Assembly (NCBI GenBank): GCA_944380415.1
Contig: CALWHN010000010.1
Coordinates: forward strand, 1-33,961
Direction of reading: 5' to 3'
DNA: 33,961 bases
Source: an uncultured Clostridia bacterium
GTDB lineage: Bacteria > Bacillota > Clostridia > Christensenellales > UBA1242
A program made the position numbers and the translations under genes. This document shows, piece by piece, positions 24,564 to 27,283 of the stretch (within the stretch, counting starts at the first letter, position 1; every line of letters starts with the position of its first letter). The notes under the pieces are model-generated. The model saw only the letters and a list, made by a program, of their open reading frames with translations, searched no databases and was not told the origin of the DNA.

Positions 24564-24585
24564 TAAAAAACCCAAGAAGGGTTTT
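24564..24585 (-). terminator. Terminator of truA
   Basis: AAAACCC (24567-24573) and GGGTTTT (24579-24585), 7 bp with a 5-nt loop, overlapping the truA stop and followed on the minus strand by a T-rich tract. Confidence 0.75.
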
Positions 24586-25357
24586 AATATTTAACTTTTT
24601 TAAGGTAAAGCCCAGAAGCTGGCGCAGTTTTTCCCGCCTTGGTTCTGTCCTTTGCGGCGAGAATTTCTTTAACATCGCCAGGCTTTATTTTCCCAATTCC
24701 AACTTCATAAAGCGTTCCAACAATTATCCTAACCATGTTATACAAAAAACCGTTTCCAGAAATTTCGAAGATAATTTGGTCTGCTTTTGTCATGTAAATT
24801 TTAATGTAGTTAACCGTTCTAACATAATCGGAAACCTCTGCTTTGGCGCTGCAAAAAGAAGAAAAGTCGTGCGTCCCAACAAGATGTTGCGCAGCCTCTT
24901 TCATAAGTTCCAAATCTGGCATCTGTTTAAACTCGCCAACAAGCCCCTCCAAAATTGGGCTTCTTCCAACTTGAAGATGATATTCATAAATCTTTTCTTT
25001 AACGGAATATCTTGCGTGAAAACTTTCAGAAACTTCTTTGGCAAAAGTTATGTGAATGTCCGAAGGAAGATAGGCGTTAATTGCGCTTACAAGTTTTGTT
25101 GAATTTAAACAGGGCTTTCGTGAGCCTTTACTTGTAAAATTAGAAAAGAATGAATTTGAAGTTGCCTCAAAAGTTGCCGTTTGGCCAAAGGCATGAACCC
25201 CGGCGTCTGTCCTTCCGCTTCCGGTCAGTTCAACATCTTCTCCAATTAATTTTGAAATTGCCTTTTCAATTGTTTCTTGAACGCTTGTTCCATTCTTTTG
25301 TCTTTGCCAGCCAACATAGCCGGTTCCTTTATAACTAATTGTAAGTAATATTTTCTT
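24584..25357 (-). CDS. truA: tRNA pseudouridine synthase TruA with no recognisable start codon
   Basis: The frame is open from a TAA at 25369 to the stop at 24584 and encodes a complete TruA. It reads KKILLTISYKGTGYVGWQRQ, the catalytic GRTDAGVHA with Asp51, SFHARYSVKEKIYEYH, a GNGFLYNMVRIIVGT segment and a normal C-terminus, 257 codons from 25357. The enzyme makes pseudouridine at positions 38-40 of tRNA anticodon arms. No ATG, GTG or TTG exists in frame before a TTG at 24952, which would remove the active site. The codon at 25357, where Met is expected by homology and by the leaderless spacing, is AAG. An ATG at 25365 is out of frame. Either one base is mutated or misread, or initiation is non-canonical. 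Confidence 0.85.
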   Translation of the reverse strand, partial: KKILLTISYKGTGYVGWQRQKNGTSVQETIEKAISKLIGEDVELTGSGRTDAGVHAFGQTATFEATSNSFFSNFTSKGSRKPCLNSTKLVSAINAYLPSDIHITFAKEVSESFHARYSVKEKIYEYHLQVGRSPILEGLVGEFKQMPDLELMKEAAQHLVGTHDFSSFCSAKAEVSDYVRTVNYIKIYMTKADQIIFEISGNGFLYNMVRIIVGTLYEVGIGKIKPGDVKEILAAKDRTKAGKTAPASGLYLKKVKY

Positions 25358-25363
25358 AGTTCC

Positions 25364-25372
25364 ATTTTACCA
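25364..25372 (-). promoter_or_regulatory. Extended -10 promoter of truA
   Basis: Minus strand TGG then TAAAAT (25364-25369), followed by six bases and the AAG codon at 25357. The geometry is the same as at rsmD and recO. Confidence 0.5.
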
Positions 25373-25441: not shown

Positions 25442-25470
25442 ATTATAAGATATTTTTATTCCAGTGTCAA
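25442..25470 (-). promoter_or_regulatory. Perfect consensus sigma-A promoter facing truA
   Basis: Minus strand TTGACA (25465-25470), a 17-bp spacer and TATAAT (25442-25447): both hexamers match the consensus in full. Predicted start near 25435, about 78 nt before truA. Confidence 0.85.
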
Positions 25471-25611: not shown

Positions 25612-26289
25612 ATGGAAGAAAATTTCTGTAAAGTAAAAAACTTAAATTCTTTTGGCCCTTCGCCAATCCCAGAGGAAGGAAAGTTTGTCAGTGCAAAAAA
25701 AATTGAGGACATAAGCGGCTTTTCCCACGGGGTTGGAACTTGCGCTCCCCAGCAGGGCGCTTGCAAGCTAACAGTAAATGTTAAAAACGGAATAATTAAG
25801 GAGGCGCTTGTTGAAACAATTGGTTGCAGTGGAATGACCCACTCCGCCGCAATGGCCGCCGAAATTTTAATTGGAAAAACTCTTTTAGAGGCACTCAACA
25901 CAGACCTTGTTTGCGACGCCATAAACGTTGCAATGAAGCAAGTTTTCCTTCAACTTGTCTATGGCCGAAGCCAGTCTGCTTTCAGCGAAGGCGGGCTTGA
26001 AATTGGCGCGGCAAGAGAAGACCTTGGAAAAACCAAGTCAAGCCAAGTTGGAACAGTTTATTCAAACGACCAAATTGGAACAAGATATTTAAATTTGGCA
26101 GAGGGATATATAACAAAACAAGGTTTGGACGAAAACGGAGAGATTATTGGCTATGAATACATCTCGCTTGGAACGCTTATGATGAACCTTCAAAACGGGA
26201 TGGAAATTCCAGAGGCAGTTTCTAAAAGCACAAAAACATATGGACGGTTCAGCGATGCAGTTAAAGTTATCAATCCAAGGAAGGAATAG
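25612..26289 (+). CDS. NifU-like (IscU-fold) protein paired with the GGGtGRT protein
   Basis: 225 aa. Residues about 45-135 match the IscU/NifU N-terminal fold: ACKLTVNVKNGIIKEALVETIGCSGMTHSAAMAAE, then LIGKTLLEALN. Cys72 (GCSG) and Cys101 (LVCDAIN) occupy places where scaffold proteins hold cluster ligands. Cys44 and Cys51 sit in a TCAPQQGAC segment, and the third canonical scaffold Cys is not obvious. The extra ~90 C-terminal residues (SNDQIGTRYLNLAEGYITKQGLDENGEIIGYEY) are not part of the classical scaffold. AAAAAGGAG precedes the ATG. It is 13 nt upstream of the GGGtGRT gene, the pairing known for that family. A role with a metal or Fe-S cofactor is inferred. Confidence 0.75.
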   Translation: MEENFCKVKNLNSFGPSPIPEEGKFVSAKKIEDISGFSHGVGTCAPQQGACKLTVNVKNGIIKEALVETIGCSGMTHSAAMAAEILIGKTLLEALNTDLVCDAINVAMKQVFLQLVYGRSQSAFSEGGLEIGAAREDLGKTKSSQVGTVYSNDQIGTRYLNLAEGYITKQGLDENGEIIGYEYISLGTLMMNLQNGMEIPEAVSKSTKTYGRFSDAVKVINPRKE

Positions 26290-26302: not shown

Positions 26303-27283
26303 ATGAACAATAAAAGAAAACCGGCAATAGATGTTTGTTTAAAGAAATATGGAATAGAAAGTTTAGAAAAAGCTAAAGAAATTTGCAACTCAAAGGGAAT
26401 TGACGTTGAAGGAGTTGTTAAAGGAATTCAACCAATTGCTTTTGACAACGCTGTTTGGGCGTACACTCTTGGGGTTGCAATTGCAATTGCTAAAGGCGAA
26501 AGATCAATTGAATCCGTCTGCGACTCGATTGGAGAAGGCCTTCAAGCCTTCTGCGTTCCAGGCTCTGTTGCAGATCAACGAAAAATTGGAATTGGCCATG
26601 GAGAGCTTGCAAAAATGCTCCTTTCCGAGGAAACCAAGTGTTTTTGCTTTTTAGCTGGCCACGAAAGTTTTGCCGCGGCAGAGGGTGCAATGGGAATTGC
26701 AAGAAGAGCCAACGAGGTAAGAAAAACTCCCCTAAAAGTAATTCTAAACGGCCTTGGAAAGGACGCAGCATATATAATTGCAAGAATAAACGGGTTTACC
26801 TTTGTTGAAACAAAATACAATCAAGAAACAGATGAACTTAAAATTGTTGGCGAAAAGCGCTTCTCAAACGGAACCAGCGGAAATGTTAAAATTTACGGCG
26901 CCTATGATGTTAACGAAGGTGATGCAATTATGAAACATGAAAGTGTTGATGTTTCAATCACTGGCAATTCAACTAACCCAGTTAGATTTCAACATCCAGT
27001 TGCGGGAACATACAAAAAATGGTGCACGGAAAACGGAAAGAAATATTTCTCCGTTGCCTCCGGCGGTGGAACAGGAAGAACGCTTCATCCAGACAATGTT
27101 AAAGCCGGCCCAGCAAGCTATGGCCTTACAGACACCATGGGAAGAATGCACTGCGACGCCCAGTTTGCCGGAAGCAGCTCCGTTCCTGCCCATGTTGAAA
27201 TGATGGGATTTATTGGAATGGGAAACAATCCAATTGTTGGCGCAAGTGTTGCATTGGCAGTTTTAACAGTTAAGTGCATATAA
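26303..27283 (+). CDS. GGGtGRT family protein
   Basis: 326 aa from ATG 26303, chosen by GGAGGGAGG 5 nt upstream; the frame is open further but that DNA includes the end of the previous gene. The defining motif GGGTGRT is at 254-260, followed by the conserved YGLTDTMGRMHCDAQFAGSSS (about 273-293) and a Gly-rich C-terminus. Nine Cys are present, including KCFCF (113-115), VCDSIGEG (73), FCVPG (84) and HC (284). No signal peptide; the hydrophobic stretches are short. The family (Pfam GGGtGRT) has no established biochemical function and is found next to NifU-like proteins. Likely cytoplasmic; a metallocofactor or thiol chemistry is possible but unproven. Confidence 0.85.
   Translation: MNNKRKPAIDVCLKKYGIESLEKAKEICNSKGIDVEGVVKGIQPIAFDNAVWAYTLGVAIAIAKGERSIESVCDSIGEGLQAFCVPGSVADQRKIGIGHGELAKMLLSEETKCFCFLAGHESFAAAEGAMGIARRANEVRKTPLKVILNGLGKDAAYIIARINGFTFVETKYNQETDELKIVGEKRFSNGTSGNVKIYGAYDVNEGDAIMKHESVDVSITGNSTNPVRFQHPVAGTYKKWCTENGKKYFSVASGGGTGRTLHPDNVKAGPASYGLTDTMGRMHCDAQFAGSSSVPAHVEMMGFIGMGNNPIVGASVALAVLTVKCI

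Follow-up and report, generated by a model that had tools for sequence, protein, structure and literature searches.

A single-base start-codon difference, real or miscalled, in a leaderless-type truA gene of an uncultured Clostridia bacterium

Leaderless genes and unusual start codons in bacteria

Bacterial leaderless genes, in which a -10 element (TANNNT) lies directly before the open reading frame (ORF), have been surveyed (PMC3160421) and described in Deinococcus-Thermus (PMC12340547). A non-canonical GTC start was reported for sigR of Streptomyces (PMC5472188). We analyzed a stretch of 33,961 nucleotides (hereafter the window), which is contig C10 of a fragmented genome assembly (G000; 851 kb, 40 contigs, 96% complete), and in which the gene for tRNA pseudouridine(38-40) synthase, truA, carries AAG in place of a start codon. 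The window truA resembles the bacterial leaderless genes in that an extended -10 ends 6 nt before its first codon and no Shine-Dalgarno sequence precedes it; it is unlike them in that the 5'-terminal codon would be AAG, and not AUG or GUG. The leaderless design is exactly present in truA of a sister species and in the neighboring recO.

The locus can also be set beside two other groups of known cases. Like start-loss mutations in bacteria, the window truA has a single start-codon substitution with promoter and frame intact, and a close relative carries a start codon at the AAG column between identical flanks; it differs only in the gene concerned, and the truA base may be real or miscalled. 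With the AUU start of infC and the GTC start of sigR (PMC5472188), truA shares a codon other than ATG, GTG or TTG at a conserved start position; those codons, however, are functional starts, whereas AAG occurs in this truA alone and no Shine-Dalgarno sequence precedes it. We conclude that a housekeeping gene of leaderless type differs here by start loss, either real or miscalled, which is no evidence of a new initiation mode.

The truA frame, its promoter and its start column

The features discussed here are collected in Table 1. The truA frame comprises 257 codons counted from AAG, plus the stop codon, and its translation from AAG reads KKILLTISYKGTG...KKVKY*. On the upstream side a TAA at about 25372-25370 (minus strand) bounds the open frame, with the in-frame order TAA AAT GGA ACT AAG, and the whole open frame after this TAA translates as NGTKKILLTISYKGTG...KKVKY*. 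A preliminary description of the window had stated that the frame is intact and has no ATG, GTG or TTG for about 135 codons, and this was borne out: the frame is open to 24584, and the first such codon downstream of AAG is a TTG, 135 codons in. The predicted protein matched the NCBIfam profile TIGR00071 over its full length (residues 3-254) with 205.2 bits, passing the curated cut-off of 142.85, and it also matched PF01416. The motif with the catalytic Asp, GSGRTDAGVHA (GRTDAGVHA), is intact and conserved in the sister species. The ORF that begins at the TTG is the only standard-start ORF in truA, and it is a C-terminal piece without GSGRTDAGVHA; because it lacks the catalytic Asp region, it cannot stand in for full TruA. 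Translational coupling of truA to an upstream gene was considered and rejected, as the upstream neighbor (25612-26289) lies on the opposite strand.

Table 1. Features at the truA locus, in window coordinates
Feature	Position	Strand	Basis
AAG in place of truA start codon	25355..25357	-	ATG in sister, GTG in third species
truA, tRNA pseudouridine(38-40) synthase frame	24584..25357	-	profile matches, catalytic motif
Extended -10 TGGTAAAAT, leaderless-type promoter	25364..25372	-	its sequence; spacing peak across the genome
Additional promoter-like site farther upstream, TTGACA-17-TATAAT, directed at truA	25442..25470	-	its sequence; putative role
First standard-start (TTG) ORF within truA, 122 aa	24584..24952	-	ORF list

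The extended -10 TGGTAAAAT lies exactly 6 nt before AAG, as the preliminary description had it, and both the -10 and the 6-nt spacer are identical in the sister species. The best Shine-Dalgarno candidate before truA has 3/6 matches to AGGAGG and was counted as none. By the features that mark leaderless genes, the window truA thus has a -10 within the usual 6-7 nt or so of its first codon and no Shine-Dalgarno sequence, and lacks the 5'-terminal AUG or GUG, which the sister species has as ATG. The next gene, recO, has TGCTAAAAT, then 6 nt, then ATG, a design that matches the sister truA. That the ancestral truA of this lineage would have been transcribed leaderless from the extended -10 is well supported by this 6-nt spacing and by the genome-wide peak described below. 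About 85 nt upstream of truA stands a perfect consensus TTGACA-17-TATAAT, which in the sister species reads TTGACG-17-TATAAT. This site supplies no start codon to truA; it is possibly a second truA promoter or the source of a short RNA, and it might give a longer truA transcript, in which truA would again be preceded by no Shine-Dalgarno sequence. Neither a structured leader nor a known RNA element was detected at truA, with no Rfam match and a folding z-score of 0.06.

The nearest relative in the collections is the sister species (G002, locus L034 on contig CASDUK010000001.1, 'uncultured Firmicutes bacterium'), whose TruA is 88% identical to that of the window. The sister gene has ATG at exactly the AAG column, and the ...TTTATGGTAAAATGGAACT before it and the AAAATATTACTTACAATTAG after it are as in the window; identity extends over 53 bases on the upstream side and over 53 counted from the start codon, one base excepted. 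Identical runs that long on both sides of the start occur in 26/649 genes, so the conservation around the truA start is not exceptional. A third species of the genus (L006) has GTG at the AAG column. In 51/51 relatives examined, one of the codons ATG, GTG and TTG stands at this column or close by, and none of these 51 has AAG there. A comparison with close relatives had been suggested in the preliminary description, which had placed AAG where the family has its first Met and had explained it by one T-to-A change. Both statements agree with the sister ATG and the GTG of L006, and the position of the change, 25356, is as given (T on the plus strand, A on the minus strand). The three-species comparison, with one genome per species, suggests that the change went from ATG to AAG in the window. 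In a pattern scan of 98 family genomes, only the window and the sister species matched, and no further strain was found in the viral contigs searched.

Start sites across two related genomes

To weigh the leaderless reading, nearly all of G000 was compared with G002, which gave 680 shared genes whose changes were in excess at third positions. Hexamers resembling a -10 and lying before the first shared ATG numbered 34 at a gap of 6 nt versus 1 to 13 at other gaps. When the hexamer was required in both genomes before the first conserved ATG, we found 23 at gap 6 versus 1 to 7 at other gaps (7 at gap 7), and for GTG starts with the hexamer in both genomes, 7 at gap 6 and 2 at gap 7. Shine-Dalgarno matches in the shared genes peaked at gaps of 4-7. 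The -10 peak at gap 6 together with the Shine-Dalgarno peak at 4-7 indicates that both initiation modes are used by the two species. Shared columns near ORF starts with a -10 at 6-7 nt comprised 36 ATG, 9 GTG and one GTG/ATG pair, and truA was the single AAG/ATG pair among them. The conserved ATG and GTG starts fit a review of leaderless translation, in which some species are reported to use GUG well (PMC9031893). As about 45 shared genes carry a -10 at a distance of 6-7 nt from ATG or GTG, leaderless starts, those at GTG among them, appear to be in regular if minor use in this lineage of small genomes.

A screen for displaced starts in 669 shared genes returned truA as the sole clean start loss by substitution: the ORF ends are equal, and the start is at codon 3 in the sister species, with none before codon 138 in the window, a result that goes beyond chance. 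Many entries among the 669 genes are ORF-extension differences, and the other discordant start columns were, by inspection, internal codons or upstream TTGs beside a shared ATG. Two positive controls were also picked out by the screen: infC, and prfB, which carries a +1 frameshift site. The irregularities of both genes are common to the two genomes, unlike that of truA. The infC frame (G000:C7 minus strand, reverse-strand offset 26307-26898) is conserved after AGGGAGG in both species, and infC probably starts at AUU in both, as judged from sequence. An AUU start after AGGGAGG is the classical IF3 arrangement, here in a lineage with leaderless starts as well.

Origin of the AAG codon and its consequences

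Selection on truA was considered together with the age of the change. The dN/dS of truA against the sister species is 0.14, compared with a genome median of 0.08 (85th percentile). A tree built from 21 TruA proteins gave amino-acid branch lengths of 0.061 for the window protein and 0.068 for that of the sister species. Relative-rate counts against four outgroups did not differ beyond noise, and 1/51 strongly conserved columns is changed in the window protein (I to V). Pseudogene decay was rejected on the grounds of this dN/dS, a branch equal to that of the sister species and the intact motif. Since the frame has no decay, the start change should be very recent, or absent from the organism. The single-base difference, the conserved promoter and spacing, the intact frame and the uniqueness among shared genes are observed, whereas we infer that truA is transcribed leaderless, that its translation is lost and which way the base changed. 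The most probable explanation, to which we assign a probability of about 0.85, is that the window truA has a derived, non-functional single-base start change, present either as a real mutation or as a consensus miscall. The ancestral truA mRNA would begin at or beside AUG, and the middle base of this AUG would have been changed in the window sequence to give AAG. A leaderless mRNA with neither a 5' AUG or GUG nor a Shine-Dalgarno sequence is expected to be translated very poorly. Very little TruA should thus be made from an mRNA that begins with AAG and has no Shine-Dalgarno sequence, and the window sequence would most likely represent a near-null truA allele that leaves tRNA positions 38-40 largely unmodified. 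The start loss would be either a very recent mutation, still segregating or newly fixed, or a miscalled consensus base.

A real start-loss mutation and a consensus miscall are about equally probable. The miscall, in which this metagenome-assembled genome shows AAG through an error of the consensus or a base from a minority strain and the organism has ATG, is one of the two forms within the preferred explanation, weighed separately here since its consequences differ, and we rate it as slightly short of an even chance. It is favored by the fragmentation of G000 into 40 contigs, by the singleton AAG where every relative examined has a start codon, and by a truA without decay. G000 also has two other apparent single-base nonsense differences relative to the sister species, and in G002 no gene of comparable length appeared disrupted by inspection. 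These differences are in a RecD2-like helicase gene (L146; G000:C7 minus strand, stop at reverse-strand offset ~10434; AGA to TGA, codon 590/749) and a permease-like gene (L138; G000:C3:38232-38234 on the plus strand; GGA to TGA, with a 354-aa ORF in the sister species), both named by resemblance only. Two such extra changes would be expected under recent inactivation as well as under sporadic miscalls, and are compatible with both. However, radical derived residues are not in excess, at 97 in G000 versus 104 in the sister species over 132,211 residues, which is a mild argument against a generally error-rich consensus; overall rates are equal (700 versus 693), and no long gene was conspicuous for a frameshift-type disruption. 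Generally low base quality of G000 was rejected because of the missing radical-residue excess, and a low error rate is compatible with these counts.

TruA might still be made from the 5'-terminal AAG or from a near-cognate AUA (codon 3) or AUU (codon 7) just inside the leaderless mRNA, a reading we consider improbable. The purifying selection on the truA frame, which has no acceleration, is in line with such initiation, as are ATA and ATT near the predicted 5' end and the apparent use of AUU by G000 infC, as judged by its conserved frame and AGGGAGG. A recent change, however, accounts for the intact frame equally well, infC has a strong Shine-Dalgarno sequence whereas truA has 3/6 matches at best, and AAG is common to no relative. 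Furthermore, among the shared genes of the two genomes there was no conserved leaderless AAG start, the AAG/AAG rows being by inspection not start sites. The narrower version, in which a leaderless mRNA initiated at the 5'-terminal AAG, or at AUA two codons on, provides a functional or regulated low TruA level, seems a little less probable still. The preliminary description had raised, as a further alternative, a base lost in the AAAA run. The true start would then be ATG 25365 in a different frame, or a frameshift would connect the two frames. ATG 25365 is indeed one frame away, and the run is A-rich, although short. This alternative, the least probable of all, did not hold up and was excluded because the sister species aligns without gaps, has the same run length and has ATG at the AAG column; in addition, ATG 25365 overlaps the -10 and would be absent from a leaderless transcript, and in the sister species it meets TGA after three codons. 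A mini-ORF, ATG GAA CTA TGA, overlaps the sister's ATG, and its stop disappears with the base change that turns this ATG into AAG; we judged this to be a coincidence of ATGA.

As mentioned above, we prefer a derived, non-functional start change in the window truA. In Vibrio cholerae, truA deletion mutants were grown and are viable, and a minimal-medium growth defect was cited for truA/hisT (PMC10117853). Given viable mutants, a null truA allele could persist for a while. Should AAG be a miscall, it reminds us that reads are needed before start loss is called in metagenome-assembled genomes. If it is real, the locus would be a natural experiment in a small genome of ~0.85 Mb, where a conserved enzyme of tRNA modification has lost its start codon to one base, the start codon being almost the sole initiation signal on a leaderless truA mRNA. 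It could then test how far leaderless ribosomes tolerate AAG and how far this lineage tolerates the loss of TruA.
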